Shown: positions 4,535 to 26,061 of the stretch, one piece after another
How the letters are laid out: each line of letters starts with the position of its first letter
Position numbering within the stretch: the first letter of the stretch is position 1
The notes under the pieces: model-generated
What the model was told of the DNA's origin: nothing
Database searches by the model: none
The model's input: the letters and a program-made list of their open reading frames with translations, nothing else
Source: a virus
IMG/VR virus record: IMGVR_UViG_3300013099_000077
Coordinates: 1 to 26,061 of that record
Direction: 5' to 3' (one strand)
DNA length: 26,061 bases
Program-made: the position numbers and the translations under genes

Positions 4535-7129
4535 ATGGCTGAACTTACTGAAAAAAATATGAAACAATATGCAATGATATTCGCTGAAGCGTTGAAACGC
4601 CAAGGTGTAATGTCTGCTAATACTTCAACACTTGAAAATAAAGATGAAGTAGGTGTGCAACAGGATAATAGTTTTACAGAATATAAAGAAAGAAAAGCAT
4701 CACGTAAGTTATTAAAAGAAAATAATAAACTGTTAGATGAATATTTAGATATCCAAGAAGATATTAATAAAACGAAAGAAAATGAGAAAAAACATGCTAA
4801 GCGTCGCAAACAAATAGAAGATGAATTACAAGATGGTTCTATATTACTTGGAAAATCTTATCTTTCTGCTGCCAAAGCAATAAAACAAGGCGATCTTAAA
4901 CGTAAAGAAGTTAAAGCATTTACAGGCAGTGAAGATTTAGATAAATTATCTAAAGATTTTAGTGTTAAAATTGATGATGCTGGTAATGTGATGTCAGACT
5001 CTCTAATAGATTCAGCAGAAAATATTCACACTAAAACGAATAGAATGATTACTAAGCTTTATAGTATGATTAATACTAAAGCAATGTTAGCTGCTTCCTT
5101 CACTACATTTGTTAAAGAATTTCGTACTGGTTTAAAATATGGAGCTGATTTAACAAAAAATAATGCTGCTAGAGAATTTAATGCTTTAAAAATGGCAATA
5201 AGTCCTGCTGATCTGATAGAAATGGAAGCCAAGAATAAAAGATTAGTGAATGTTTTAGGTGGAGCAGCAGAATTTGAAAAAGTTATTACATCTGGCGTCG
5301 GATCAATGTTCAAGTTCTATGGATCCCAAGAAGAAGCCACACGAAGTACAACTCAAGCTTTACATGCATTATCGTTAGGTGGTATTAAACCAACTATGGA
5401 TATGATGGTTAACCAAAAAGGTGAACTATCAGAATTAAATAAAATGTTCCATAGTATTAGAGGTATAACAGGTCAAACGTTTGCTGAACAAAATGCTGCT
5501 ATGGAAGAGTATATTAAAAGCGATGTAGGTAAAACTAGATTAGCTGCAGCAAGCAATTCAGCAGAACGATTAGCACTAGTTCAAAGAAACATCAGACATA
5601 AAGAATTATATGCGTCACTTGGTTTAACAGCTGAACAAGCAACTCGAGTATCAGAAACTTTTAATAATATCGCTGGAATGGATCCAAAAGAAAGATTAAA
5701 AGAATCTTATAAAGCCCAAGCCATAGCTGGCGCAATGGGTATTGAAAATTCTCAATTGATTGGTGAAGTTATAAGAGCAGGCGGTACTGCAAATGTTAGT
5801 GCTGAAAAAGCTAAAGAATATGCTGATATTATGCAAAGTATTGGTAAAAAGCAAGCTGAGGCATTAACTGGTCAAGTAACTGCCGCTACATTAGTTACAG
5901 GTACATTCATGGGAATGTCACCAATATTACGAGAACAATCTAAAGCAGCAATGGACTTGTCTCTTGCTGATAAAGAAGCAGCTAAAGCGGCTAAAGCTAG
6001 AACTAAACAGGAATTAGCAGATTTAAAGGCTAGCCCTGGAGTCAAAGTTACAGCTGAATTGATTAGGTTAGGTGAAATTGCGGCTAATGGTGTTACAACA
6101 AATTCATTATTGCAATTAATATTAACTGGTATTGGAATTATGGCTGGTGGTGCTAGACTACTAGCTGGAGCAAAAGGTGTTGGCGGCATATTAAAAACAG
6201 CACTAGATTCTAAATCTAAAGGCATTAAAACTGATATCGGTAAGAATCTTGGTAAAGCAGGATTTAGTAAAATAAAGGATTTAGCTGCTAATGCTAAAGG
6301 TAATTTAGGTAAAGCAACTGGTGTTGCTGGTAAATATGGTTCTAAAGCTGTAGGTGTTCTAAAAGGAGCTGCCGGTATGGCTACTTCTGCCGGTGGACTT
6401 GCTGTAGCTGCTACTGCTGCCGCTGCAGGTGCCGCTGCATTTGGTGTACATCAGGCATATAAGGCCATTACTACTGGTACATCCGATGTTTATGAGATGT
6501 TAGGATCTGATATACAAAGTTCATTAGTAGATGGTATTGAAAATACTGTAAATTTTACTAAAGGTTTATTCGAAGATGAAAAAGAAGTAAAAGATAAGAA
6601 AAATAAGAAGGATATGAAACCTGAATATTTTGCAAAAACTATTGAAGGTATTAATAAAGTAAAAGATACTAAAAATACTAAATCTATGAAACCTGAATAT
6701 TTTGCAAAAACTATTGAAGGTATTAATAAAGTAAAAGATACTAAAAATACTAAATCTATGCAGCCTGAAAATTTAGTAAAAACTATTGAAGGTATTAGTA
6801 ATGTAAAAGATAAAACCACAACTAATAATTTTGTAAAACCAATTGATAAAACTAAACAACATGTATTAGATAAGAAAGATACTAGAAAGAAAACCGGCGA
6901 TAATAGCAAAATGATATTAATGCAAGAACAGATGATAGCATTACAACAACAAAATTCAGAATTAATGAAAATGACTAATGAAATATTAGAAAATAATTTT
7001 GAAAAAATGCATACAGCTAATAATAAATATTTGAAATCATCAAATGATATCAAAACAGTTTTGGAATCTAATATAGATGATGGATTAACATTAGGAAGTT
7101 TTGATGATAATTCATTCTCTTTCGTATAG
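4535..7129 (+). CDS. Tail tape-measure-like structural protein (864 aa)
   Basis: A long helical protein. The N-terminal about 110 residues are highly charged coiled coil. The middle is Ala-, Lys- and Glu-rich. Residues about 510-660 are dominated by Gly/Ala-rich hydrophobic stretches (for example around LILTGIGIMAGG and an Ala-rich run near 630-650), like the membrane-active segments of tape measure proteins that enter the cell with DNA. The C-terminal third is Lys/Asn-rich with three 24-residue tandem repeats. Length, composition and position next to the putative tail chaperone and directly before the portal support a tape measure role: setting tail length and helping DNA delivery. T4 gp29 is shorter (about 590 residues), so this is not a close relative. 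It could instead be another large internal virion protein. Confidence 0.6.
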   Translation: MAELTEKNMKQYAMIFAEALKRQGVMSANTSTLENKDEVGVQQDNSFTEYKERKASRKLLKENNKLLDEYLDIQEDINKTKENEKKHAKRRKQIEDELQDGSILLGKSYLSAAKAIKQGDLKRKEVKAFTGSEDLDKLSKDFSVKIDDAGNVMSDSLIDSAENIHTKTNRMITKLYSMINTKAMLAASFTTFVKEFRTGLKYGADLTKNNAAREFNALKMAISPADLIEMEAKNKRLVNVLGGAAEFEKVITSGVGSMFKFYGSQEEATRSTTQALHALSLGGIKPTMDMMVNQKGELSELNKMFHSIRGITGQTFAEQNAAMEEYIKSDVGKTRLAAASNSAERLALVQRNIRHKELYASLGLTAEQATRVSETFNNIAGMDPKERLKESYKAQAIAGAMGIENSQLIGEVIRAGGTANVSAEKAKEYADIMQSIGKKQAEALTGQVTAATLVTGTFMGMSPILREQSKAAMDLSLADKEAAKAAKARTKQELADLKASPGVKVTAELIRLGEIAANGVTTNSLLQLILTGIGIMAGGARLLAGAKGVGGILKTALDSKSKGIKTDIGKNLGKAGFSKIKDLAANAKGNLGKATGVAGKYGSKAVGVLKGAAGMATSAGGLAVAATAAAAGAAAFGVHQAYKAITTGTSDVYEMLGSDIQSSLVDGIENTVNFTKGLFEDEKEVKDKKNKKDMKPEYFAKTIEGINKVKDTKNTKSMKPEYFAKTIEGINKVKDTKNTKSMQPENLVKTIEGISNVKDKTTTNNFVKPIDKTKQHVLDKKDTRKKTGDNSKMILMQEQMIALQQQNSELMKMTNEILENNFEKMHTANNKYLKSSNDIKTVLESNIDDGLTLGSFDDNSFSFV
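6614..6829 (+). repeat. Three tandem 72-bp in-frame repeats in the tape-measure-like gene
   Basis: Units begin at 6614, 6686 and 6758, exactly 72 bp (24 codons) apart, each starting with ATG. The first two share almost identical DNA for the whole unit; the third has diverged (QPENLV in place of KPEYFA). Each encodes a KTIEGI core followed by a Lys/Asp/Thr-rich linker. Near-identity of two copies points to a recent duplication. Confidence 0.9.
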
Positions 7130-13639: not shown

Positions 13640-14306
13640 ATGTGAGCACTGTCATACACAATATGTTAATGAAAGGTTTTTTATTAAACATGCATCTAAG
13701 TGTAAAGTTTTAGCCAAGAAAAATGAAGTTAAAAGTGTTATTGGTAGAAATGCTTTTGGATATTATAAAAAATATTTAGAAACTAAGAGATGTTATAATA
13801 CTGATATTGAAACATTTATGAGTTCAAAGTATTATACAAGCTTTATAAATTTTGCTAAATTTGCTATAGATAAACGAATTCCAGACATTCCAATATATTT
13901 AGAATTTGTTAATAGTAAACGAATATTGCCAACAGTTTGGTCTTCAAGTATTGTATATTCAGCTTATATAAAATATTTGGATACATTAGATCCTTTAAGA
14001 TCAGTTGGTGTTTCTATAGTATGTTTACAAAAATTATCTAAAATATTTGATTGTGATATTGAAGAAGTTTTACTTAAATTATACATAAATGAGATCATAG
14101 AATTACTCCAATCTAGACATTTATCTCCATGGTTTTTGTTGAATTCTGTTAGTATTAATAAGATATTAACTAATCCAAGTATAACCGAAAATCAACATAA
14201 AGTATTGGAAATGTTTATAAATCCATCAAAATGGCAAAAGAAATTTGATAAAAATCGCAAAGAAGTTGATGAAATTAAAAATTATTTAAAAGAATTAAAA
14301 TTATAA
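13632..14306 (+). CDS. Zinc-finger phage protein, function unknown (224 aa)
   Basis: Residues 4-23 form a C-x2-C...H-x3-C style finger (CEHC ... KHASKC), like a degenerate C2H2 domain. The remaining 200 residues are helical and basic, with an SSKYYTSFINFAKFAI segment, an ILPTVW segment and a final Lys-rich helix. Uncharacterised proteins with an N-terminal finger and a (S/K)YYxxFxxFAKF core seem familiar to me from large T4-like phages near replication genes. A DNA-binding role is plausible but not shown. It overlaps the gp62-like gene by 8 nt and ends inside the late promoter at 14302, so it closes the early block. Confidence 0.6.
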   Translation: MSECEHCHTQYVNERFFIKHASKCKVLAKKNEVKSVIGRNAFGYYKKYLETKRCYNTDIETFMSSKYYTSFINFAKFAIDKRIPDIPIYLEFVNSKRILPTVWSSSIVYSAYIKYLDTLDPLRSVGVSIVCLQKLSKIFDCDIEEVLLKLYINEIIELLQSRHLSPWFLLNSVSINKILTNPSITENQHKVLEMFINPSKWQKKFDKNRKEVDEIKNYLKELKL

Positions 14307-14342: not shown

Positions 14343-16028
14343 ATGGCTACAGTATATTCTATACAACATACAGATACGAATGAACCTTCATTTATTATCA
14401 ATCCATCTCAGATAGATGGTTTCGGTGGACCAAAATCTAATTCAAGCTTAGTATTACATGGTACTGGTAGATTAAAATATGGTGAAGCATTAAACGAAAA
14501 TTTCTTACATTTATTAGAAAACTTTTCTAGTCCAGCTAGAGCACTTCCATTAATAGTATCAATTCAAGGTGCTGATGATAATGGTGGAGCCGGTGTTGAT
14601 TATGTTGAAATTTTTGATGATAAAACAGATATTTTTATTAATGATTTTGAATTTCAAATAGTTGGTTCTACTAGTGCTATTAATGATAACAATTATTTAG
14701 TAGCATCTAGTTCTTATAATCAACCTCTAAATTTAACAACAATAATTTTACAAACTATATTACCAGATGCTCAAGCAGCATTTTTGGGAAATGTATCTTA
14801 TAATGTAGTAGAACCAGATCCATTGATGGTAGTTCCACCTTATAATTCTGGTCAATTATGGTTTAATAAAACAGATAGCGTATTATACATTTATAGAGAT
14901 ATTTCAGGTACTGGAACATTTCAATGGGATTATGCTGGTAGACTTGGAGTAACAGTTGAACCACCTACGTTCCCTCATGAAGGTGACTTGTGGTATGACC
15001 AAAGCGTACCTCAATTAAAAGTATATACTGGTGCTGCCTTTGTTAGTACTGCTGATCGATATGTTTTAAAAGGCGGCGATACAATTACTGTAAATGATAA
15101 TTCAGTTGGAGCTATTGGTAATGCGGCCGGAGTATTAACATTTACTAAAGACGATGGTGTTTCACCTTCTTTATATATTAATGAAGGTCATGGTGATATT
15201 AGTAAAGCTCCAGATTTTAGATCTACTGATGCTATATTAATGACAGCATCTGAAACTGTACACATTATAGCAGATTCTAATAATAATGGGACCGGCGGTT
15301 TCGTTGTAGGTAAAGGTGCAACCGATTTAGTTAGTTCAACTGATTTATTCCATGTATTAAATGATGGTACTATACAATCTGGTTTAATAACTGGATATGA
15401 AAGTTTAGTTTTATTTGATAATGTATTAACTAATAAAAAATATGTTGATGATTTTATCAATTCTTTATCTAGTGTTTATGTAGAAAAAGATGGTGATAGT
15501 ATAACTTCAGTATTACCCGCTATAGGTTTTGTTGGAAGAACAGATGGTGTTTTAAATTTTGATAATGTATTGTTCTTAAATGAAGGTAAAGGTACTGTTA
15601 TTGATGGGCCTGATATTAGAGGCACTGCAGCACTATTATTAACTGCTGATGAAAGCGTTTTAATACATATTGATGGAGACAATAATTCAACCGGTGGTTT
15701 CCATGTAGCAAAAGGTTCTTATAGTACTACTGGACATACTCCACTATTTAAAATTGAAAATGATGGTACTATACATTCAGATGTTACAAATTATGAAGCG
15801 TTATTAACCAATGGTAATGATATACCAAATAAACAATATGTAGATGATGAAATTGCTGCATTACAGGCAGCATTACTTGGAACTGGCGGCGGAACATTTG
15901 TTCATGCTAATCCAACTGTAGCAGTATCTGGAGATATAAGAGTCACAGGGACAGGAGCAACATTAGAAATTTTTATATATGGTAGTAGTACTTGGAATAA
16001 AGTATTCCCTGCTGTATACAGCACTTAA
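14343..16028 (+). CDS. Fibre-like virion structural protein with internal duplication (561 aa)
   Basis: The N-terminal region has a YSIQHTDTNEP opening and a KYGEALNENFLHLLENFSSP segment (about 45-64), a pattern I associate with fibre or whisker proteins of large T4-like phages. Two short repeats follow: SGQLWFNKTDSVLYIY at about 169-184 and EGDLWYDQSVPQLKVY at about 213-228, typical of phage fibre shafts. Residues about 240-371 and 379-503 are a large duplication sharing LNEG/INEG, TGGFxVxKG, NDGTI and KYVDD landmarks. The C-terminal 40 residues are short strands ending in a GSSTWNKVFP motif seen in fibre tips. It has its own late promoter and lies directly upstream of the radical SAM block. 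A role in host contact or neck decoration is inferred. Confidence 0.75.
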   Translation: MATVYSIQHTDTNEPSFIINPSQIDGFGGPKSNSSLVLHGTGRLKYGEALNENFLHLLENFSSPARALPLIVSIQGADDNGGAGVDYVEIFDDKTDIFINDFEFQIVGSTSAINDNNYLVASSSYNQPLNLTTIILQTILPDAQAAFLGNVSYNVVEPDPLMVVPPYNSGQLWFNKTDSVLYIYRDISGTGTFQWDYAGRLGVTVEPPTFPHEGDLWYDQSVPQLKVYTGAAFVSTADRYVLKGGDTITVNDNSVGAIGNAAGVLTFTKDDGVSPSLYINEGHGDISKAPDFRSTDAILMTASETVHIIADSNNNGTGGFVVGKGATDLVSSTDLFHVLNDGTIQSGLITGYESLVLFDNVLTNKKYVDDFINSLSSVYVEKDGDSITSVLPAIGFVGRTDGVLNFDNVLFLNEGKGTVIDGPDIRGTAALLLTADESVLIHIDGDNNSTGGFHVAKGSYSTTGHTPLFKIENDGTIHSDVTNYEALLTNGNDIPNKQYVDDEIAALQAALLGTGGGTFVHANPTVAVSGDIRVTGTGATLEIFIYGSSTWNKVFPAVYST

Positions 16029-16081: not shown

Positions 16082-17146
16082 ATGCGTGAACTCATGTGTT
16101 ATCTAAAGACCACGGATACCTGCAATTTAAATTGTGCCCATTGTTTTACAAATGGGATAAATGGTAAAAAGGGTTGGTTCGATGTTCCAGCAACAATAGA
16201 TTTCTTTCAAAGACTGAAAAAATTTAATCCAGAACTTGATAATGGAAACATATCATTTCATGGCGGCGAACCTTTGATTGCACCAACTGAGTTACTATTT
16301 GAAACTTGGCATGGTGTTAAAGATTTGTGGGAAAATGTTTGGTGGTCTGTACAAACCAATTTAACGTTTTCCCTTAATTCCGGTAGGCTTGATGTACTCG
16401 AAAAGATTTGTGATAAATCTTGGGGTACATCATGGGATAAAAATATAAGATGGTCTAACCAGAAACAAGAAGATTTATGGGAAGATAATGTTAAACAGTT
16501 AGTAAAAGATGGTCATAATATTACTGTAATGGTAAGTGTTAGTAAAAGTATAGTTGAGATGGAACCTATAGATATTATTAACTATATTTCTAGCTTAGGT
16601 ATCAAACATATAAATTTTGAAAGAATTACAGGTAATGGTAACGCATTATTAAATAGTGGTATTATTCCACTTAATATAGAATTAGATGCTTGGTTCCATA
16701 AAATGTGGAAACAATCAATCGAACATAAAACATACGAATATATAGACAATATGTTTTTTGATTCTATATTAACAGAAGTAGTTCATTCTACTCATGCTGG
16801 TTGTAGATGTAGAATGTGCGAACAAAAGATTTTAACAATTAATGCTGATGGTACAATTGGTGGTTGTCCAAATGGTGCAGTTGATAAACAATTTGCCCAT
16901 ATAAATGATCATATGTATGATATATTATTTAGTCCACAGAGACTATGTAATATTCAATCTGAATTAATGAGACCTAAAGCATGTTATGAATGTCCAGTAT
17001 ATGATACATGCAATGGAGACTGTCATCAATTAGAATTTCAAGGTGATATATGTCCAGCGCCTAAATCAATGATGATAGATATGAATGAAAATAGAGATAT
17101 TGATCTGTTTAAAAAGTTTTTAAACGGATTTGTAGGACAGGAATAA
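16082..17146 (+). CDS. Radical SAM/SPASM enzyme, putative maturase of the CHSS-tail protein (354 aa)
   Basis: The C-x3-C-x2-C motif CNLNCAHC (C14, C18, C21) holds the [4Fe-4S] cluster that cleaves S-adenosylmethionine. A canonical HGGEP follows at about residue 60. The C-terminal part is a textbook SPASM domain: a first Cys, then G-x4-C (DGTIGGC), then C-x2-C-x5-C-x3-C (CYECPVYDTCNGDC) and a last Cys in DICPAPK, enough for two auxiliary clusters. Peptide-modifying enzymes of this type form thioether, carbon-carbon or other links on ribosomal peptides. HxsB of the His-Xaa-Ser system has this layout. The next gene, 10 nt away, ends in a His/Ser/Cys repeat, so it is the obvious substrate. Anaerobic sulfatase maturase-like activity is an alternative, though no sulfatase is seen. 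Confidence 0.9.
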   Translation: MRELMCYLKTTDTCNLNCAHCFTNGINGKKGWFDVPATIDFFQRLKKFNPELDNGNISFHGGEPLIAPTELLFETWHGVKDLWENVWWSVQTNLTFSLNSGRLDVLEKICDKSWGTSWDKNIRWSNQKQEDLWEDNVKQLVKDGHNITVMVSVSKSIVEMEPIDIINYISSLGIKHINFERITGNGNALLNSGIIPLNIELDAWFHKMWKQSIEHKTYEYIDNMFFDSILTEVVHSTHAGCRCRMCEQKILTINADGTIGGCPNGAVDKQFAHINDHMYDILFSPQRLCNIQSELMRPKACYECPVYDTCNGDCHQLEFQGDICPAPKSMMIDMNENRDIDLFKKFLNGFVGQE

Positions 17147-17156
17147 GGAACCTTAT

Positions 17157-17669
17157 ATGGCAAATGTAACTAAAGCCCAATTTATAAATGATTTAAACGC
17201 ATATTTACAAGCTTATGCAAATGCTAAGAAAAATGCTAATTCTACTGACGTTTCACGTTCAGGAAATGAAATTACGTTAACTAATTATCCAGCTGTTAGT
17301 ACTGGTGAATTATCAACTGTGACTGTTAGTGGACCAGATCTTCAAGCAGCTCTTGAAGAATTTACTAAACAATTTTCTAGAGTTAGACTTACTAAGTTTT
17401 ATAAAAACCAATATGGAACAAACGTATTCAAATATTCTAGATTTGCTAGAATTAATAATACACTTCCTGATGGTACTAGAAGTCAACCTTCTGCTTCAAC
17501 ATATAATAATATTCAACCTCTTGAAGATATTAATTTAACACGATATCATACAATTTTAAGCTCATTACAGACTACATTAAATATCAATGCTAATAATTTA
17601 TATAAGAATTATTATTATTGCCATAGCAGTTGTCATAGTAGCTGTCACGCATCTAGAGGTAGAAGATAA
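17157..17669 (+). CDS. Putative modified virion or RiPP-like substrate with CHSSCHSSCHAS tail (170 aa)
   Basis: The N-terminal about 75 residues form two helices around a short beta segment (ALEEFTKQF near 65-73). The middle is Asn/Ser/Thr-rich, with KFYKNQYGTNVFKYSRFARI at about 80-99. The end is a tyrosine cluster (YYY, 152-154) followed by C155-H-S-S, C159-H-S-S, C163-H-A-S and R-G-R-R. Three HxS triplets spaced by four residues recall HxsA, the His-Xaa-Ser repeat target of two radical SAM enzymes. The gene directly follows a SPASM enzyme, and a hairpin overlaps its stop. The long ordered body is unlike a typical leader peptide, so a structural protein with a modified tip is as likely as a released peptide. 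A strong AAGGAACC ribosome binding site precedes the ATG. Confidence 0.75.
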   Translation: MANVTKAQFINDLNAYLQAYANAKKNANSTDVSRSGNEITLTNYPAVSTGELSTVTVSGPDLQAALEEFTKQFSRVRLTKFYKNQYGTNVFKYSRFARINNTLPDGTRSQPSASTYNNIQPLEDINLTRYHTILSSLQTTLNINANNLYKNYYYCHSSCHSSCHASRGRR

Positions 17670-17683
17670 ACTAATTTAGTTTA
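17667..17683 (+). repeat. Inverted repeat at the end of the CHSS-tail gene
   Basis: TAAACTAA (17667-17674) and TTAGTTTA (17676-17683) are perfect inverted copies with one base between them. The repeat starts on the stop codon and runs into the AAGGATAA ribosome binding site of the next gene. An RNA hairpin could protect the 3' end of substrate mRNA or reduce downstream translation. The stem is AT-rich and therefore weak. Confidence 0.5.
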
Positions 17684-17694
17684 AGGATAAAAAA

Positions 17695-18648
17695 ATGTTC
17701 AATATTAAAAATAAAATATATGTAAAGCATATAGATAAGTTTCAACCACATGAAGGTGAGTTTATACTTTTAGATGGTGGTGAATTCGCAGATCTTTATT
17801 TCCCAGAAGACAGTAATTTCATATTCAGATATAATACATTAGCTGAAATGATGACAGAAAGATTTGATGATGATTATAGTAAGTTATGGGAATACATAGA
17901 CTCTATAGATAAATTAAGAATTTATATATCAGATATTAATGATTATGCTGCATTATTTCTATACACAATGAAAGAATTATGTGAAACCTTTGGTTATCTT
18001 ACTGATGATGTAATGTTCAAGATATTAGAAATGTATGAAGTCAGTGATTTTATTCAAGAAAATCGTGATATAAAATACAATACAATGACTGATATATACA
18101 GTGCCTTTCAAGCTACTGGAAAATTATTCAATGTTGGTAGTACTGCAGATATACCATTAGAATTTGTATTATTTATGTACAAAAATGGTAAAATAACTAA
18201 ACCAATAGCAAACTTAAAAATTGCTAATATGGTTGAACCTATGCTAACTGGATATATTGAAAGTCAGTTGGTTAAAGTTGTTGGTCTTATTACGAGTAAT
18301 TATGATGTAATAGAAGATTATTTACCTATATCTGGAATAACTGATCCTGGTAAACTTAAAACTGCTATTAATAATGATCCATTTCTTTGTAAATTAATGT
18401 GTGATTCTATCGTTGATGTTCATACAGATTTAGATAATATTATTGAATTATATTCTTTGGCTTATGCAAAAGAAATTGATACTATGGAAGACGATCATGT
18501 TACTGAATTAATGGTATTTGTAGAATTATTTAAAAATCCTGATATTGACCAATTCTTGGCTGACTTTGAATGTTTAAGTTGTTTAAGTTTTTTTAGTAGC
18601 CGTTATCTTAAATTTAATGATTTAATACTTAAAACCTATATGGTATAA
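17695..18648 (+). CDS. Unrecognised protein in the radical SAM block (317 aa)
   Basis: Opens with AAGGATAAAAAA before ATG. The first 45 residues are beta-like (EFILLDGGEFADLYFPEDSNFIF). The remainder is almost entirely helical, acidic and rich in Leu, Ile, Asp and Tyr, with no metal, nucleotide or membrane motif and only a few scattered cysteines (a CLSCL near 293-297). It sits immediately downstream of the putative substrate and 2 nt before the first of two paralogous block-specific proteins. Such placement fits a substrate-handling or scaffold protein for the modification enzymes, or a second virion protein. I do not recognise the family. Confidence 0.55.
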   Translation: MFNIKNKIYVKHIDKFQPHEGEFILLDGGEFADLYFPEDSNFIFRYNTLAEMMTERFDDDYSKLWEYIDSIDKLRIYISDINDYAALFLYTMKELCETFGYLTDDVMFKILEMYEVSDFIQENRDIKYNTMTDIYSAFQATGKLFNVGSTADIPLEFVLFMYKNGKITKPIANLKIANMVEPMLTGYIESQLVKVVGLITSNYDVIEDYLPISGITDPGKLKTAINNDPFLCKLMCDSIVDVHTDLDNIIELYSLAYAKEIDTMEDDHVTELMVFVELFKNPDIDQFLADFECLSCLSFFSSRYLKFNDLILKTYMV

Positions 18649-18650
18649 AA

Positions 18651-19394
18651 ATGACAGAACTTGTTAAAACTATTCTACCTTTATCTCCTTTAGATATGGT
18701 AGAATTTTTTAAAGATAAAGAAAAAATCTTTCTTATAGACTACGTTGAATCTAAGAAAGAAATGAGTGCTAAAAGTATTCTAATTTATTTATCAAACTTG
18801 CAGATTAACTGTGAGTTTGATTCTATAGATGCAGAATTAGTAACAGAATATCTATATCTTAAAGACTTATGTAATACTCCAGAACTTGATGTGTTTGTCG
18901 CAAACTTGGTATATTTTGACAAATATAATGAACCATATCTTGATACTCAATCATTTGCTGATTTTGGAGTAGAAGTTTTAAAAGAAAACGCAGAAGTTAT
19001 AAACTTTTATAAACGTATAATGGAATCTTCTACCTTGTATATTTTATCTAAAAACTTCGAAGAGTTAAAAGAAAATGAGTCAGAAGAACAATATCCAACA
19101 AGATCAGGATTCTGTTTTTTAAATTTATACAAAATACCAGACTTCTTAATTATGTTTTTAGCAGATATAAAACCATTAGAAGATCAAATATACTTTGATG
19201 AATATTTTGATAATGATAATTATATCTTTAAAGGTAAAAACTTATTTGAATATTTCGCCCATGACGATAATTTATTCTATAAATATCTTGTAAATCTTTC
19301 AAGAGTACAAGACTTTATTAAAGGTGATGAATCTGAAGAAAGTCTTGATGGCCTTAACAAAATGGTAGACATTTATACTGCACTTAATGACTAA
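18651..19394 (+). CDS. Radical SAM block accessory protein A, paralog of the gene at 20529 (247 aa)
   Basis: It begins with a TILPLSPLDMVEFF segment, then ILIYLSNLQINCEFDSIDAELVTEYLYL and VANLVYFDKYNEPYLD, and later an acidic helical C-terminus. The protein at 20529 matches in order: TLPLSPSTIAEY, ILNYLAHLKIPC, FDTIFLYEYI, ANVLYYQKYGVPYFDD, then FF(V)SYLAD, and FDEY followed by a Gly-Gly-(D/K) turn. The two are therefore paralogs, each placed directly before a radical SAM gene (here with a 1-nt TAATG overlap). This pairing suggests an adaptor that brings a substrate to its enzyme, but no known peptide-recognition domain (RRE) is evident by eye. Confidence 0.6.
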   Translation: MTELVKTILPLSPLDMVEFFKDKEKIFLIDYVESKKEMSAKSILIYLSNLQINCEFDSIDAELVTEYLYLKDLCNTPELDVFVANLVYFDKYNEPYLDTQSFADFGVEVLKENAEVINFYKRIMESSTLYILSKNFEELKENESEEQYPTRSGFCFLNLYKIPDFLIMFLADIKPLEDQIYFDEYFDNDNYIFKGKNLFEYFAHDDNLFYKYLVNLSRVQDFIKGDESEESLDGLNKMVDIYTALND

Positions 19395-20542
19395 TGGAAA
19401 TCAAAATTCCTGTCTCTTCTATATACAGAGATAAAAAAAATATAATCAATGTATACAACGACAAAAAACATTACGGTTATTACGATAATCGTGATGAAAA
19501 TGTCGACATCAAACAACTCTTAGAATCCAAACGACCCAACATTGCTGAAGTAGAACTTACACTATTTGAAAACTGTGATATCAATTGTGCGTTCTGTTAT
19601 CATGACAAAAAATCTACGGTAGGTTTAGAATTTGATGAAATGGTTGCTAAAATATCAATTATTGAAAAATTCTTTCAAGATAGACAAGGAACTGTAGATT
19701 TCATGCAAATCAATATTGTAGGCGGCGAACTGTTTCAAGATAATCTCATAGAAAAAGGATACTTAGATTATTATTATGATATATCTAAAAAAATAAGTGA
19801 GTTAGCTTACATGTATGATTATCATTTAGAAATAGTTTGGGTATCAAATTTCTTATTTAAAGATACTAAATCTATAAACGAATTTATTACTAAATTAAAT
19901 TATAATAATATTAAATCATCGTTAATAGTTTCATATGATTTTGAAGGTAGACCAACTAATAAAAAATATTTTGAAAATATTAAACGATTAGAAAAATATA
20001 TATCGTCTGTTAATGTTGTAGCTACCATTGATACAATAAATGATATGATGACTATGACCGATCCATTCTTTGATTATATTTACCGTACGTTCCCAGTGTA
20101 TATTGATGACTATATTCCTGATGATATTAGTAATAATCTAACGCCGCCTGATAGTGTGATGTTAAAATTTTATAAATTTTTGTTTAACAACTATCCAAAA
20201 GTTGTTAATATAGCAGAATTATTGGAAAATACTGAAAATCCGATGGGATGTTTATCACTAAACAAAATTACTATATTTCCAGATGATAGTGTTTCCAACT
20301 GTAAATGGGGTAGATATAAACCTGAAAATTTCGAAACATATAAAGATACTGAGGTTAATTACCAAGACAACGCACCACAAATGAAACGACATTTAGAACA
20401 TTTCAACTGTTTATCATGTGAATTTTATAAACGTTGTAAATTTAGATGCTATACTCAATGGGATTTTATAACACCTAATATCCATGATTATGATGGATGT
20501 TGGATTAAAACATTTTTTAAATACATAAATGAAAACGATTAA
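19394..20542 (+). CDS. Radical SAM/SPASM enzyme with N-terminal extension (382 aa)
   Basis: A 55-residue N-terminal region precedes the C-x3-C-x2-C motif CDINCAFC (C61, C65, C68). A GGE motif (IVGGELF) follows at about 114. The C-terminal domain is SPASM-like: GC...C about 15 residues apart (NPMGC to VSNC), then C-x2-C-x5-C-x3-C (CLSCEFYKRCKFRC) and a final Cys in DGCW, consistent with two auxiliary iron-sulfur clusters. The N-terminal extension, rich in Asp, Lys and Tyr, may bind substrate. It is coupled by TAATG to the accessory protein at 18651 and overlaps the second accessory gene by 14 nt. Reaction and substrate are unknown; modification of a ribosomal peptide or protein is the usual role of this subgroup. 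Confidence 0.88.
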   Translation: MEIKIPVSSIYRDKKNIINVYNDKKHYGYYDNRDENVDIKQLLESKRPNIAEVELTLFENCDINCAFCYHDKKSTVGLEFDEMVAKISIIEKFFQDRQGTVDFMQINIVGGELFQDNLIEKGYLDYYYDISKKISELAYMYDYHLEIVWVSNFLFKDTKSINEFITKLNYNNIKSSLIVSYDFEGRPTNKKYFENIKRLEKYISSVNVVATIDTINDMMTMTDPFFDYIYRTFPVYIDDYIPDDISNNLTPPDSVMLKFYKFLFNNYPKVVNIAELLENTENPMGCLSLNKITIFPDDSVSNCKWGRYKPENFETYKDTEVNYQDNAPQMKRHLEHFNCLSCEFYKRCKFRCYTQWDFITPNIHDYDGCWIKTFFKYINEND

Positions 20543-21176
20543 AAGTACTTTACCATTATCACCATCTACTATAGCTGAATATTGTTCACATAATGTTAAA
20601 GGTGAAACTATAGACGTCATATTTGATATATCAGATTGTAGAATGCTGAATCATCACATATTAAATTATTTAGCTCATTTAAAAATACCATGTACTGTCA
20701 TAGGATTTGATACAATATTCTTATATGAATACATTACAACTTCAAATTATTTGGGTAATACTAACCTAGCTAAACATCATGCTAATGTTCTTTATTATCA
20801 GAAGTATGGTGTACCATATTTTGATGATGTTCTTACAGAATTTAATTTAGAATCTTTAGACAGAATGGTTAAACTATCAACTGATATCATAGATTCATTA
20901 CCGTTATTTCTATTAGCATCATGTGAAAAATTAGAAATATCTGAAAATGATATTAAACATGGTAAGAATTATACTGGAGTTAATTTTGCCCATTTAGCTG
21001 AGTTTACAGAATTTTTTGTATCATATCTTGCTGATAATATATTTGTTATGTCAAATCAAAAATATTATAGTCACTTTTTTGATGAGTATATATATGGCGG
21101 CGATAAGTTAATCCAATCTTTTATAGATAATCCAGATAATCTATTATTGAAAATTTCAGGATTTGATAATGTCTAA
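20529..21176 (+). CDS. Radical SAM block accessory protein B, paralog of the gene at 18651 (215 aa)
   Basis: Shares the ordered landmarks described for the gene at 18651 (TLPLSP start; ILNYLAHL; LYEYI; ANVLYYQKYGVPYFDD; VSYLAD; FDEY), but is about 30 residues shorter, mainly at the C-terminus. It has no cysteine cluster, membrane segment or nucleotide site. It overlaps the SPASM gene upstream by 14 nt and the first tandem radical SAM gene downstream by 8 nt, so translation is coupled on both sides. The duplication of this protein alongside duplicated enzymes suggests one adaptor per enzyme type. Function is unknown. Confidence 0.6.
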   Translation: MKTIKSTLPLSPSTIAEYCSHNVKGETIDVIFDISDCRMLNHHILNYLAHLKIPCTVIGFDTIFLYEYITTSNYLGNTNLAKHHANVLYYQKYGVPYFDDVLTEFNLESLDRMVKLSTDIIDSLPLFLLASCEKLEISENDIKHGKNYTGVNFAHLAEFTEFFVSYLADNIFVMSNQKYYSHFFDEYIYGGDKLIQSFIDNPDNLLLKISGFDNV

Positions 21177-22263
21177 GAAATTAATTAATTCATATGCAGC
21201 CCATAAAGGTGGATCGAGATCACTGCGTGACTCCAGACAGATTTCTGTAGATTTAACATTAGATATATTAAATGGGTGCGAATATAACTGTGAAGGATGT
21301 TTCGTTTCTAAAAAGAATGAGTTTAATGAAGAAGATTTAGATATATTATTAGATTTAGTAGAACAGTGGGAAGAAGGTGGGTTCGACATTAATGAACTCT
21401 TCTTAGGTCCAACTGATATATTCAGTGCTGTAAATTTTGATGAGTTGGTTTTAAACCCAAAGTTTCAAAAGATTTGTTCATATTTTACATTCACTTGTAG
21501 TACAACATTATTAAATGATTATGATGAGATTAAGCGAAAGTATGATTTATTACATGAACATTGTTTATCAGATAAACATGATAGAGAATTTGAAATTTTT
21601 GTAGTGATAGACGATAAAAGATATTTGAATAATGATAGAGCTTATATGGACAAGTTTAATAAGAACTTAGAATTATTAGATTTGTATAATGTATTTTTTG
21701 TTCTTAATGTATATTCTGAATCTATGTTTGATGCCGTAGGTCTAGCTGAATTTAATGATAAAATCTTTAAAGATTATAATTCTAAAATCAGAGTAAACCC
21801 ATCATATCTTCGTGGAACTAGTGTAAATCATTTAAGAAAATATACAGAACTTCATAATAAATTAATAAATGACCAAGTAAATGATGATAATATAGGTCGA
21901 GTATTTATGAACATGATCGATATATACTTTGGAGCATTTACTTTTAATACATATTCATATAGAAACCATGAATTATATATTGCTCCTGTTATATATGAAG
22001 GAATACCCCAGGATTTTCCATTTTTTCAAGTAGATAAAATAAATGGAAAATATAATTTAGATACATTAGATAATGCTCAAAATAGACTTACAGTACAACA
22101 ATATGATTTTAGTAAGAAGACAGAAGAATGTGATAAATGCGAGTTTATAACATCATGTTCCAGTAGAAATGTATTGTCATATATGGAACACCGAAAATTA
22201 TATGATTGCTTTATGCCAAAGAATTTATTTAGAGATGCATCTAAAGTAATTGAATTAGAATAA
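21169..22263 (+). CDS. Radical SAM protein, tandem family member 1 (364 aa)
   Basis: CEYNCEGC (C37, C41, C44) is the cluster-binding C-x3-C-x2-C. Where most family members have GGE(P), this protein has LGPTDIFSA at about 79-87, a replacement shared with the next three genes. An RVNPSYLRG segment lies in the middle of the barrel. The tail has C-x2-C-x5-C-x16-C (CDKC...C...C then MPK), which could hold one auxiliary cluster; it looks like a reduced SPASM or twitch domain, with Asn where the fourth SPASM Cys would be. The start at 21169 (MSKK) is preferred over a TTG two codons upstream because an AGGA lies 8 nt before it. Its substrate is unknown; a phage protein from this block is the simplest guess. 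Confidence 0.85.
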   Translation: MSKKLINSYAAHKGGSRSLRDSRQISVDLTLDILNGCEYNCEGCFVSKKNEFNEEDLDILLDLVEQWEEGGFDINELFLGPTDIFSAVNFDELVLNPKFQKICSYFTFTCSTTLLNDYDEIKRKYDLLHEHCLSDKHDREFEIFVVIDDKRYLNNDRAYMDKFNKNLELLDLYNVFFVLNVYSESMFDAVGLAEFNDKIFKDYNSKIRVNPSYLRGTSVNHLRKYTELHNKLINDQVNDDNIGRVFMNMIDIYFGAFTFNTYSYRNHELYIAPVIYEGIPQDFPFFQVDKINGKYNLDTLDNAQNRLTVQQYDFSKKTEECDKCEFITSCSSRNVLSYMEHRKLYDCFMPKNLFRDASKVIELE

Positions 22264-22285
22264 ATAGTAGTAAAAGGAATATCAA

Positions 22286-23407
22286 ATGATAGAAGAAGAT
22301 TTATACGAAAAAATGTCAAACTCTGAAGTAAAAACAGTTTTTGATAATGATAAGATGGATTTTGTTATTAACTTAGAACTATTAAATGGATGTGCTCATG
22401 CATGTACAGGTTGCTTTGTTAATAGGAAAAATGAAATCGTTGCAACTGATGTTAAGAAAGCTTTAAAATTGGCCCAAGAATTAACTGAAAAAGGTCTTAG
22501 ATTTAGAGAAGTTATTATATCTCCTACAGATATTTTTAGCGCAACCAATACTAATGACATATTATTGAATGACGATTTTCAAGCAATGTTAAAATTGAAT
22601 GATAAAACCCGTATCACAACTACAGCAATGTTTAATGGTACTGATTTATCTGACGTTAAAAGAGTATTTGACATATTAGATAACCCTGATTATTTTAGAA
22701 CTAATATGATTATGGAATTCTTAGTTCCTATGGAAGCTGATAAAATTGTTGCTGATGATGCTGAATATTTTAACAAACATATGGAAATTATTAATTATTT
22801 TAAAGAATCTACTCCTAAAGTAGTTGATTGGTCATTTGTTGTAAACGTTCATCATGATGATATATTGATTGATAATTTTGAACAGATTACTGATACAGTT
22901 AGAGATAAGTATGAAGGTATTATTGAATTTTTACCATCATTCTTTAGAACTGGTAATACCGATTTAATTATCAAACATTTAGGACAATGGAAAGAATTCT
23001 TAAGCAATACAGTTAATAGAGATAATTATCAAAAATTGATGGTAACTATTGCAGATTTACATCACAACGGATTTAATACAATTGTAATGAATTATCGTAA
23101 AGGTAATCTTTATGTGTCTCCATTTATATATGAACAAATATTAATGGCAGATGAAGAAATGCTATTAGATGATAGTAATGTTGAAAAATTATTTGATAAA
23201 CTTGGTGAATTAACAGCAGATCAATATAGATATGCACATAAGACTGAAGAATGTGGAACTTGCGAATATTTTAGTACATGTGTTGGTCGTAATGTATTAT
23301 CATTTATGGAATCTAAAGGCATAACCCAATGTATTTATCCTAAAGATGTATTAGATTTATATTCTAAAAATACTACACAATCTCCAAGACTGGAACGCTG
23401 TCAATAA
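22286..23407 (+). CDS. Radical SAM protein, tandem family member 2 (373 aa)
   Basis: Same layout as its neighbours: CAHACTGC (C36, C40, C43), ISPTDIFSA at about 78-86 in place of GGE, an EFLPSFFRTG segment near residue 210, and a CGTC-x5-C-x16-C tail followed by IYPK. It has the best ribosome binding site of the four (AAAAGGAATATCAA) and the only real gap (22 nt) before it, so translation can restart here within the operon. Its C-terminus is about 10 residues longer than the others, with a Ser/Arg-rich end. It shares one base with the next gene (TAATG). Confidence 0.85.
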   Translation: MIEEDLYEKMSNSEVKTVFDNDKMDFVINLELLNGCAHACTGCFVNRKNEIVATDVKKALKLAQELTEKGLRFREVIISPTDIFSATNTNDILLNDDFQAMLKLNDKTRITTTAMFNGTDLSDVKRVFDILDNPDYFRTNMIMEFLVPMEADKIVADDAEYFNKHMEIINYFKESTPKVVDWSFVVNVHHDDILIDNFEQITDTVRDKYEGIIEFLPSFFRTGNTDLIIKHLGQWKEFLSNTVNRDNYQKLMVTIADLHHNGFNTIVMNYRKGNLYVSPFIYEQILMADEEMLLDDSNVEKLFDKLGELTADQYRYAHKTEECGTCEYFSTCVGRNVLSFMESKGITQCIYPKDVLDLYSKNTTQSPRLERCQ

Positions 23408-24507
23408 TGATTATAAACGATGTTTATGGGGCAATGAACAATTCTGAATGCATCGGTGAAAATATCGCTAATGCTTCAGAGTTTAGAGTACGTATTAATG
23501 CCGAATTCCTAAATGGATGTGAATTTGATTGTGCGGGTTGCTTTGTAAAACGGAAAAATGCTTATAATAACGATGATATGGATATATTAGTCGATACTAT
23601 AAACAAATTTAGAAATACTGGACACACATTTGATGAAATCATTTTGGGACCTACTGATTTCTTTGCTGCTTACAACTCTGTTAATATTATTAGCGATAAA
23701 CGGTTCACCGATATTTTTAAAACTGGTGATGTGGTTTTAACCTTATTATCAACAATGCAAAGTTCTGATGATGATATAATAAGATTGATTAAACAATTTA
23801 ATAAAGTTTTTACATCAGAAAAAATGGAAGTTGAAGTATTAATCCCAATAGATATTAAAAAATTACACAAGGATGATCATGATTATATTGAAAATTTAAA
23901 AAGTAAAATAAAATTATTAGATTATTTTGATGCTAAAGTAGATTATGCTTTACAATTAAATATTAGAGACTTAGATTCTGAAATAGAAGACTTTGATATT
24001 GTTAAAATTACTAAACTAGTTAGAGATGAATTTGGAACTATCCTAGAATTCAATCCATCATTCATGAGATCTGGTAATATTGATAATGTTATCAATACTT
24101 TAGGAAAATGGAACACAATGTTAGAACGTTGTCTTAATGAAGATAACAAAGATTCAGTGACATTGACTATATCTAATAAGTACCACGCTGGTAATAATGA
24201 AAGAACTTTTACTTTTAAGAATGGATTCTTGTATAGTACTCCTTTTATATATGAGAATGTTGTTTCTTTAAAACCTTCTTTTGTTATAGATAGGCCAGAA
24301 TCACTTTATGAAATCGATGATATAAATTTATATGATGTTGAATCTAATATAGATCAATATAAGTATGTTAATAAAACTGATGATTGCGAAAATTGTCAAC
24401 ATGTTGCTTCATGTATATCTAAATTAGTATTAAAATATATGGAAGTAAATCAAATTACCCAATGTCTTTTATCTAGGAAAAGTATAGAATTATATGATAA
24501 TCAATAA
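23407..24507 (+). CDS. Radical SAM protein, tandem family member 3 (366 aa)
   Basis: CEFDCAGC (C38, C42, C45) is followed by LGPTDFFAA, the family replacement for GGE, and by EFNPSFMRSG in the barrel. The tail is CENC-x5-C-x16-C, but the SRNV stretch conserved in the other three reads SKLV here and the MPK/YPK end is LSRK, so this is the most diverged tail. N-terminal residues 1-30 differ among the four and may set substrate choice. It begins within the previous stop (TAATG) and is overlapped for 14 nt by the next gene. All cluster cysteines are present, so activity is expected. Confidence 0.85.
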   Translation: MIINDVYGAMNNSECIGENIANASEFRVRINAEFLNGCEFDCAGCFVKRKNAYNNDDMDILVDTINKFRNTGHTFDEIILGPTDFFAAYNSVNIISDKRFTDIFKTGDVVLTLLSTMQSSDDDIIRLIKQFNKVFTSEKMEVEVLIPIDIKKLHKDDHDYIENLKSKIKLLDYFDAKVDYALQLNIRDLDSEIEDFDIVKITKLVRDEFGTILEFNPSFMRSGNIDNVINTLGKWNTMLERCLNEDNKDSVTLTISNKYHAGNNERTFTFKNGFLYSTPFIYENVVSLKPSFVIDRPESLYEIDDINLYDVESNIDQYKYVNKTDDCENCQHVASCISKLVLKYMEVNQITQCLLSRKSIELYDNQ

Positions 24508-25570
24508 TGGCATTTCAATTGAAGAACGTAGAACTGCCACTAATAGTAACTCTTTAATAGATAGTGACAGAGTTACAGTTAGTATCCAAACAGAATTCTT
24601 GGATAGTTGTGCCTTCAATTGTGAAGGCTGTTTTGTCAAACGTAGAAATACTTTCACAGACCAGGAATTAATCGATCTAAAAAAATTCATAACAAAATTT
24701 GACGATAAATATGAGTTAAATGAACTTGTATTATCTCCTACTGATATGTTTGGAGCTAGTAATACATTCCAAATTATTTCAAATCCTATATTCATATCCT
24801 TATTTGAACATTTCAACGCATTAACCTTTAATAGTACTTTACTATCAGAACCTTCTCATGTTAAATCTATTATGGATTTTATTCGAGAAAATTATCCTGA
24901 AGATGTTTATTACGAAATGTTTGTAGTTTTGGATATAGAAAAATTTATTGCTAAAGATAAAGAATACCTTGAAAGATTGGAAACAAATTTAAGTCAATTA
25001 ACAGATGTTAATATTATCTTTGTTTATAATATTCATTCTAGTGATATGTTTAACAATGTAGATATTGCATCTATATCTAAAGAAGTTAATGACAGATATA
25101 ATTCTCATTTTAGGATGAATCCTTCATTCTTTAGATCTCAAAAGAAAAGTCTAATAATAGATGCCTTAGATAAATGGAAAGATAGATTAGGTAAAATATA
25201 TAATGATGTCAATGTTAAAGACATGTTATTTAATATGATCGATCCTTATTTTGGCAGCAATACTTATATTACGATGACTTTTAAAAATGGTAAATTATAT
25301 CGTAATCCTTATTTGTATGATTTTATATTCGATAATTCTAAAAATGTTTCAATGGAAGTTGAATCATTATCTATAGAAGAATTATCAGATTTAAATCAAT
25401 CCTTAGAACTAGAACAATATGAGTATTCAAGAGATTTAGTTTGTGATACTTGTCCATTTTTATCCTCATGTGTCAGTCGAAATGTAATCATGTATATGAA
25501 AAATAACGATATAAAAGAGTGTTTATTGCCGAAAGATATAATGTTAAAGGCTAATCTTAAATGGAATTAA
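24494..25570 (+). CDS. Radical SAM protein, tandem family member 4 (358 aa)
   Basis: CAFNCEGC (C39, C43, C46), LSPTDMFGA in place of GGE, RMNPSFFRS in the barrel, and a CDTC-x5-C-x16-C tail ending LLPK place it firmly in the tandem family. The N-terminal MIIN start repeats that of member 3, which suggests that members 3 and 4 arose from the more recent duplication, although overall divergence is large. It starts 14 nt inside member 3 and ends 10 nt inside the next, different, radical SAM gene. Confidence 0.85.
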   Translation: MIINNGISIEERRTATNSNSLIDSDRVTVSIQTEFLDSCAFNCEGCFVKRRNTFTDQELIDLKKFITKFDDKYELNELVLSPTDMFGASNTFQIISNPIFISLFEHFNALTFNSTLLSEPSHVKSIMDFIRENYPEDVYYEMFVVLDIEKFIAKDKEYLERLETNLSQLTDVNIIFVYNIHSSDMFNNVDIASISKEVNDRYNSHFRMNPSFFRSQKKSLIIDALDKWKDRLGKIYNDVNVKDMLFNMIDPYFGSNTYITMTFKNGKLYRNPYLYDFIFDNSKNVSMEVESLSIEELSDLNQSLELEQYEYSRDLVCDTCPFLSSCVSRNVIMYMKNNDIKECLLPKDIMLKANLKWN

Positions 25571-26061
25571 TCTTAAAGATTTCAGAAATATGTGACTGGT
25601 CCTGTAGTTTTTGTTCATCAAGTGATATTGCTAATACTAAACGAGATGTATTAGATTTAGATCATGTCAAACGATTTTTAAAACGATTTCCTGAAACCAA
25701 TACTATCATCATAAATGGAGGCGAACCTTTAATGGTTAAACCTTCATATTATTGGGAATTATTAGATCATTTAGATGAAATAAATTCTCAATCAAACATT
25801 TCTTTTACCTCAAATCTTTGGAATTTTTATAATCATCCTGAAAAATGGATAGACATATTCAAACATCCTAGAGTAGGTGTGACTACATCATTTAATTATG
25901 GAAATACTAGGACAATTGCTAAAGATGTACCATATACTGAGAAGATGTTTTGGAAAGTATCTGATAAATTTTTAGAATTAGTAGGATATAGACCTGATTT
26001 TATTTCTGTAGTTAATGAAGAAAACTATGAAAATTGTATTGACAATGTTAGATTAGCTGAA
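25561..26061 (+). CDS. Radical SAM enzyme, N-terminal part (3' end outside window)
   Basis: An ATG at 25561, inside the end of the preceding gene, opens a frame that runs off the right edge after 167 codons. CDWSCSFC (C11, C15, C18) begins almost at the N-terminus, and a canonical INGGEPL lies at about 52-58, followed by a TSNLWNF strand at about 84-90. It thus belongs to the classical GGEP type like the enzymes at 16082 and 19394, and not to the PTD family before it. Whether a SPASM domain follows cannot be seen. The modification block therefore extends beyond this window. Confidence 0.85.
   Translation, partial: MELILKISEICDWSCSFCSSSDIANTKRDVLDLDHVKRFLKRFPETNTIIINGGEPLMVKPSYYWELLDHLDEINSQSNISFTSNLWNFYNHPEKWIDIFKHPRVGVTTSFNYGNTRTIAKDVPYTEKMFWKVSDKFLELVGYRPDFISVVNEENYENCIDNVRLAE

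Follow-up and report, generated by a model that had tools for sequence, protein, structure and literature searches.

Radical SAM enzymes in large phages are encoded together with a Cys-His repeat-tailed protein beside fibre genes

Bacterial peptides and some enzymes are known targets of modification by radical enzymes. The described systems closest to the locus reported here are the bacterial Hxs (His-Xaa-Ser) systems, in which HxsA, a protein whose C-terminal repeat contains His-x-Ser, is encoded with at least two radical S-adenosylmethionine (rSAM) enzymes, HxsB and HxsC, and the SPASM maturases, comprising those of ranthipeptides and sactipeptides (PapB, CteB) and the anaerobic sulfatase maturases. 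CteB and PapB form thioethers at Cys. Many rSAM genes in one phage, 11-12 and partly clustered, were reported for Campylobacter phages CP220 and CPt10, with a role in host metabolism proposed by the authors (PMC2853527). Here we describe a gene cassette in a 26,061-nucleotide (nt) stretch of viral DNA (IMG/VR record IMGVR_UViG_3300013099_000077, positions 1 to 26,061; the whole stretch is called the window), in which seven proteins that by motif and profile are members of the rSAM superfamily are encoded with a small protein ending in a Cys-His repeat. We consider it likely that this is a phage-encoded protein-maturation cassette, in which the rSAM enzymes modify the repeat tail and the matured protein is built into the virion.

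Like Hxs, the cassette combines a C-terminal repeat containing His-x-Ser with at least two rSAM enzymes, one of which (rSAM3) weakly resembles HxsC (1e-8). It differs in its period-four repeat with a Cys before each His, in its five rSAM families, in lacking an HxsA match, and in being phage-borne beside fibre genes; rSAM3 reached 34.3 bits against the HxsC cut-off of 267.9, and the tail-bearing protein matched no NCBIfam family, HxsA included. rSAM1 appears to share the domain plan of the SPASM maturases, which provide its nearest models and structures, but all scores lie far below their family cut-offs, and in place of a short precursor peptide the candidate substrate is a folded protein, 120-300 amino acids (aa) long. 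CP220 and CPt10 share the multiplicity and partial clustering of rSAM genes, and searches with rSAM1 and rSAM4 gave no match in any Campylobacter phage record. The enzymes and the tail-bearing protein of the window are the following.

16082..17146, plus strand: rSAM1, radical SAM/SPASM, 354 aa; PHROG 1802 (2e-50), SPASM 7e-6
17157..17669, plus strand: tail-bearing protein, candidate substrate, 170 aa; C-terminus CHSSCHSSCHASRGRR
17619..17666, plus strand: codons of the CHxSCHxSCHxSRxRR tail (residues 155-170), identified by conservation
19394..20542, plus strand: rSAM2, with C-terminal SPASM-like cysteines, 382 aa; PHROG 1802 (3e-28), SPASM 0.002
21163..22263, plus strand: rSAM, PHROG 31457 paralogue A, 366 aa, TTG start; 2.7e-17; CEYNCEGC
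22286..23407, plus strand: rSAM, PHROG 31457 paralogue B, 373 aa; 3.4e-17; Pfam Radical_SAM 7e-5; CAHACTGC
23407..24507, plus strand: rSAM, PHROG 31457 paralogue C, 366 aa; 5.4e-19; CEFDCAGC
24494..25570, plus strand: rSAM, PHROG 31457 paralogue D, 358 aa; 1.3e-14; CAFNCEGC
25561..26061, plus strand: rSAM3, cut by the window end, 167 aa visible; Pfam Radical_SAM 4e-10, above cut-off

The association between enzymes and tail was examined from both sides. In the enzyme-side scan, viral contigs were searched by rSAM1 alignment, 365 relatives were confirmed and 80 loci were read. The tail protein was present in 56 of the 67 rSAM1 loci with at least 900 nt downstream, and lay immediately downstream in 44; the other 11 comprised five longer contigs with a tail gene pair elsewhere, one CHSSCHSSCH-type run in an open reading frame (ORF) cut by the contig end, and loci that were short or ended too early. 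For the tail-side scan, the tail was searched as DNA because a protein search is defeated by the rapid divergence of the body and the shortness of the tail; tblastn of the whole protein gave no match in cultured phages. A degenerate pattern for CHxSCHxSCHxSRxRR was run over viral contigs, demanding neither an rSAM gene nor a stop codon. Among the tail-pattern matches listed, a stop codon followed directly in 146 of 147, and the remaining one ran off its contig. The viral matches listed included 118 loci with the tail at the ORF end, of which 111 had cassette rSAM genes in the fetched stretch and the other seven lay on contigs with Pfam rSAM genes elsewhere.

When 84,980 genomes of bacteria and archaea were scanned with the same pattern, 31 stretches matched, 13 with the tail at an ORF end and 18 matches elsewhere. 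Cassette rSAM genes were found in 12 of the 13 but in none of the 18 chance matches (p = 9e-8). All 12 (L208, L212, L217, L220, L221, L229, L230, L232, L235-L238) belong to genomes obtained by metagenome assembly or binning, and probably represent phage contigs sorted into cellular bins. Across 18 large genomes or contigs of phages, the sole tail-like sites with at least three Cys-His repeats adjoined the cassette, with one or two tail genes per locus and the main rSAM1 in each. The original prediction named enzymes lacking a conserved neighbouring substrate as evidence that would count against it; instead, the repeat-tailed protein accompanied the enzymes almost without exception, by fibre and baseplate genes. 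Judged by gene content, this is the arrangement of a ribosomally synthesized and post-translationally modified peptide (RiPP)-type system, with a conserved putative precursor encoded with its candidate maturases.

The tail was near-invariant while whole proteins were only 17-31% identical to that of the window; C155, H156, C159, H160 and H164 were invariant in 61 sequences. Information content was 4.2-4.3 bits at the tail Cys, His and Arg columns and 3.7-4.0 bits at the Ser columns, compared with about 1.2 bits at typical body columns, as computed on 135 representatives ending in RxRR that were mostly selected by pattern; the set anchored on rSAM1 has the same repeat. In that set, free of tail selection, natural variation took the form of (CH-x-S/N) units in 2-5 repeats with R-x-R-R or S-I/L endings, and more rarely CHSSCHSSHSSRNRR. 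Each rarer ending arises once on the rSAM1 tree, a pattern that co-inheritance would also give. Five repeat units were seen in the tail of locus L017, and a tail protein in L200 (7832-8515) carries a duplicated tail block (...CHSSCHDSCHSNVVCHSSCHDSCHSARGRR). The predicted structure of the window protein had an AlphaFold2 (AF2) predicted local distance difference test (pLDDT) score of 83; a fold search against PDB returned no convincing solved fold, and its BFVD matches included a 296-aa Atu_ph07 protein of the same size as gp170, discussed below.

A tblastn search with rSAM1 matched seven records of cultured phages: Agrobacterium phage Atu_ph07 (present twice), Sinorhizobium phage Phosso, Burkholderia phages SURPRISE13, FLC6 and FLC8, and Pseudomonas phage DT01. 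In five fetched phages, the gene order was a fibre-like or other virion structural gene, a cupin/JmjC gene, rSAM1 and a small hypothetical protein, with short genes between the first two in some. The small proteins end in CHSSCHTSCHGSRGRR, CHSSCHASCHNSRSRR, CHTSCHASCHSSRSRR, CHTSCHTSCHSARGRR and again CHSSCHTSCHGSRGRR, and outside the tail are about 22-25% identical to the window protein; the corresponding rSAM1 enzymes are 35-45% identical to that of the window. Downstream follow, with variations, PHROG 20767 proteins, 17695-type proteins, further rSAM enzymes and, in several, 2-oxoglutarate (2OG)-Fe(II) oxygenases. Conserved order beside fibre genes, suggested at the outset as a check, thus held in jumbo phages of Agrobacterium, Sinorhizobium, Burkholderia and Pseudomonas, where the cassette adjoins fibre or baseplate genes. 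The cassette also occurs in hundreds of viral contigs, with up to nine rSAM enzymes per block; that of a 222,888-bp contig (L111, IMGVR_UViG_2706796094_000001) is close to the Burkholderia FLC6/S13 cassette.

Two layouts were distinguished. Type 1 runs fibre, JmjC/cupin, rSAM1, tail protein (170-300 aa), PHROG 20767, 17695-type protein, rSAM2, PHROG 31457 rSAM enzymes, rSAM3 and rSAM4. Type 2 has two tandem tail proteins (about 126-140 aa), PHROG 20767 and up to five PHROG 31457 rSAM enzymes, with rSAM1-rSAM3-rSAM4 nearby, on the opposite strand in several genomes. With the tail removed, the type 1 and type 2 bodies had no detectable relation (hhalign probability 2.8%), while the tail was identical in kind. 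One 151-kb contig (L140) holds both layouts, at 29125-30738 and 48460-59767, each with its own rSAM1.

At least two unrelated phage lineages carry the cassette. A T4-type portal was found in 10 of 19 records, the window included, and a homologue of the S13 central spike in seven others; no record had both and two had neither. FLC6 and its Ralstonia relatives are placed with the phiKZ group in two reports (PMC8066314, PMC5468394), and Atu_ph07 with Rak2-like phages (PMC6102473). Its presence in T4-portal phages and in a non-overlapping set with the phiKZ-type spike indicates that the cassette moves as a unit.

The original prediction of seven C-x3-C-x2-C proteins of at least two types was confirmed, with the motif near the N-terminus of each, and four families were resolved: rSAM1 and rSAM2 (both PHROG 1802, clearly distinct), the four PHROG 31457 paralogues (26-32% pairwise identity) and rSAM3. 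Pfam Radical_SAM scores were weaker (E 9e-6 to 0.03) for 16082, 21163, 22286 and 23407; the 24494 product was assigned through PHROG 31457 and Fer4_12, and that of 19394 through PHROG 1802. SPASM domain scores were 26.4 bits for rSAM1, against a cut-off of 27 and with conserved cysteines, and 18 bits for rSAM2, while the PHROG 31457 family retains just a short CX2C..C as auxiliary cysteines. CX3CX2C was retained in 558 of 561 complete rSAM homologues, so the enzymes are under selection for activity; all 103 complete rSAM2 homologues retained it.

The best NCBIfam models were PapB and anaerobic sulfatase maturase for rSAM1 (4e-11), and the peptide-modifying TIGR04083 (6e-10) followed by HxsC for rSAM3, which also resembles MoaA and DynA; all were below cut-off. 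Solved relatives of rSAM1 include CteB and anSME. None of the window enzymes reached the curated cut-off of a named NCBIfam maturase (PapB, YhhB, DynA, HxsB, HxsC and others), the best being rSAM1 with 42.8 bits against 340. Searching family models, as had been proposed, thus placed the enzymes nearest mainly to SPASM peptide or protein maturases (PapB, anaerobic sulfatase maturase, DynA, CteB), all far below cut-offs; cofactor or nucleotide pathways, named beforehand as the assignment that would speak against virion modification, were not the main neighbourhood of either the models or the solved relatives. NrdG, the anaerobic ribonucleotide reductase activase, was rejected (24494 product, 17.1 bits against a cut-off of 126; no NrdD seen in the window), as was a viperin-like antiviral function, where NCBIfam viperin values of 1e-7 to 2e-5 for several enzymes, below cut-off, reflect general rSAM similarity.

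Several lines strongly suggest that the tail protein is located in the virion. Genes just 5' of the cassette in diverse contigs belong to tail fibre and baseplate-wedge families. Mass spectrometry (MS) of Atu_ph07 virions identified 131 proteins, mostly in three clusters, one of them coding sequences (CDS) 170-215 (PMC6102473). With the major capsid protein as gp215 and the portal as gp198 in this numbering, gp170 is AUZ94952, the protein ending in CHSSCHASCHNSRSRR; a virion cluster starting exactly at gp170 implies its detection. The rSAM enzymes gp168 and gp165 fall outside the cluster. Virion MS had been called decisive beforehand, and these published data put the tail protein at the edge of the MS-defined cluster.

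We propose that rSAM1, with its putative SPASM domain, and the other rSAM enzymes would act sequentially on the C-terminal (CH-x-S/N)2-5 tail of the small protein encoded among them. The products would probably be crosslinks of the thioether or carbon-carbon kind, or related changes to the Cys, His or Ser residues, and in many relatives JmjC/cupin proteins and 2OG-Fe(II) oxygenases would add hydroxylations; PHROG 20767 and 17695-type proteins may be non-catalytic partners, for example in substrate presentation. The matured protein would enter the virion, most likely in the baseplate or fibre region whose genes adjoin it, and the modified tail could give a stable, or a metal- or surface-binding, tip. 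Among the possible chemistries, we regard thioether or carbon-carbon crosslinking combined with hydroxylation as plausible, and the outcome could also be metal binding. The most economical reading, in our judgement, is that the CHxS units of a virion protein are modified in succession. As for the virion-modification role first predicted, the repeat-tailed partner and the fibre/baseplate linkage were borne out, while the modification itself and its chemistry we infer. More tentatively, and with somewhat less than even confidence, the cassette could represent a widespread viral post-translational modification system in unrelated lineages, in which 5-9 rSAM enzymes and oxygenases turn a (CHxS)n virion tail into a new crosslinked or metal-binding tip for adsorption or cell entry.

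Several points weigh against maturation of a virion protein tail. That the tail is modified at all we infer from sequence, and the reaction cannot be named because no rSAM enzyme passes a family cut-off. The window record is only a 26-kb fragment, and it is without the cupin/JmjC gene present in other cassettes. The place of gp170 in virions is deduced from stated cluster limits and matched gene numbers. Close linkage could partly come from a shared late block, an account weakened by the occurrence in unrelated lineages and by the existence of a second layout with a rearranged order. Cys-His tails are able to bind metal without modification, and the tail might be an unmodified metal-binding tip, the rSAM enzymes acting on the neighbouring fibre or another virion protein. 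Cys-His repeats are indeed good metal ligands and the fibre gene lies directly 5' of rSAM1; however, fibre proteins vary widely among cassettes while the tail is near-invariant, and the two tail-protein families both travel with the enzymes despite their unrelated bodies, which leaves this explanation unlikely.

We give about the same low weight to the tail protein serving as a scaffold for assembly of a small molecule or cofactor by the enzymes, with subsequent release of the product, as for mycofactocin and pyrroloquinoline quinone (PQQ), where the peptide is consumed, so that a virion protein would not be the end product. Such a route would account for the many enzymes for one short motif and for the oxygenases, dihydrofolate reductase (DHFR)-like genes and tryptophan halogenases of some cassettes, but the fibre/baseplate block encodes the body as a folded domain of 100-300 aa, gp170 marks the edge of the virion cluster, and no protease or release gene was recognised. 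In published accounts these genes are either listed individually or given roles in host metabolism, DNA repair or Fe-S chemistry. An auxiliary metabolic role during infection has been put forward for the Campylobacter phages (PMC2853527), for DT01 (PMC8541153) and for the marine T4-like genome TARA_ERS488813_N000010, whose 12 rSAM genes were read as Fe-S metabolism (PMC5332604) and which may be a further carrier of the cassette. We regard this role as highly improbable here: it does not account for why, in unrelated phages, the fibre/baseplate blocks link these genes to a repeat-tailed protein, and most of the nearest families are maturases of peptides or proteins.

The "Fe-S oxidoreductase / radical SAM" genes annotated in the Ralstonia/Burkholderia jumbo phages FLC6 and S13 are the same cassette (loci L005 and L001); the available portions of those papers list single genes with no link to a tail protein (PMC8066314, PMC11898562). 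In the open-access literature we found no paper linking phage rSAM enzymes to a virion protein, describing this tail or reporting viral RiPPs, and no account of viruses applying radical-enzyme modification to their own particles, in line with the earlier impression that the system was undescribed. Bacteria are known to pair a repeat-tailed precursor with rSAM maturases; what appears to be new is that phages would apply this principle to a protein of their particle. If the proposal is right, chemistry now annotated as host metabolism is carried by several cultured jumbo phages and by hundreds of uncultured ones. The five enzyme families would then offer new chemistry for modifying peptides, and the tail, once modified, would add a new element to the structures by which phages attach or enter. 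With the systems of Atu_ph07 and FLC6/S13, the question can be addressed directly by MS.

The remaining genes considered in the window are the fibre-like gene and the partners of the enzymes.

14343..16028, plus strand: fibre-like virion structural gene, 561 aa; PHROG 15511 (9e-14), PHROG 14394 'virion structural protein' (6e-5)
17695..18648, plus strand: 17695-type cassette protein, 317 aa; no family match in profile searches
18651..19394, plus strand: PHROG 20767 partner, alpha/beta-then-helical, 247 aa; 1e-19; AF2 pLDDT 85
20529..21176, plus strand: second PHROG 20767 protein, 215 aa; 1e-9; 25% identical to the 18651 product

By eye, the N-terminus of the fibre-like product resembles Atu_ph07 gp176, which precedes the cassette there, and proteins with an MFHLFNKVY-type N-terminus, similar to the 17695 product, occupy the same slot in other cassettes. 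PHROG 20767 homologues come after the tail gene in most loci; a fold search with the 18651 product gave no convincing PDB fold. JmjC/cupin proteins adjoin rSAM1 in many relatives, and 2OG-Fe(II) oxygenases occur in the cassettes of several phages. Directly 5' of rSAM1, locus L022 (4381-7519) carries two adjacent flavin-dependent tryptophan-halogenase-type genes (Pfam 1e-103 and 5e-107) with 2OG oxygenases, and L033 (4392-7548) a pair similar by eye, also with 2OG oxygenases; halogenation may be part of some cassettes. Two adjacent DHFR genes lie within the SURPRISE13 cassette (L001, 18391-19568), and likewise in FLC6 (L005).

The window is a fragment of a large T4-type phage, assigned by profile search from a T4-like portal (PHROG 213, 4e-94), clamp loader and baseplate hub. 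ORF calling and translation gave eleven plus-strand genes packed from 16082 to the window end (16082, 17157, 17695, 18651, 19394, 20529, 21163, 22286, 23407, 24494 and 25561), with junctions of +10, +25, +2, -1, -14, -14, +22, -1, -14 and -10 nt. The original prediction had counted ten; its junction range, from 14-nt overlaps to a 25-nt gap, was correct. The gene block is far beyond chance, since it is conserved in many other phages. The late promoter attributed to the fibre-like gene corresponds to a T4-late-like TATAAATA at 14302, 41 nt 5' of the gene, although such octamers are common at 29% G+C. The claim that no strong terminator separates the fibre gene from the operon agreed with our finding of a single weak hairpin (16010-16023) at the fibre gene end; terminator-like sites in the region were no more numerous than in shuffles (2 observed, 2.1 expected), and one transcript for the fibre gene and the block is therefore plausible. 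Elsewhere in the window, an 864-aa ORF without a PHROG match (4535-7129) lies between the minus-strand baseplate-hub-like gene and the portal gene.

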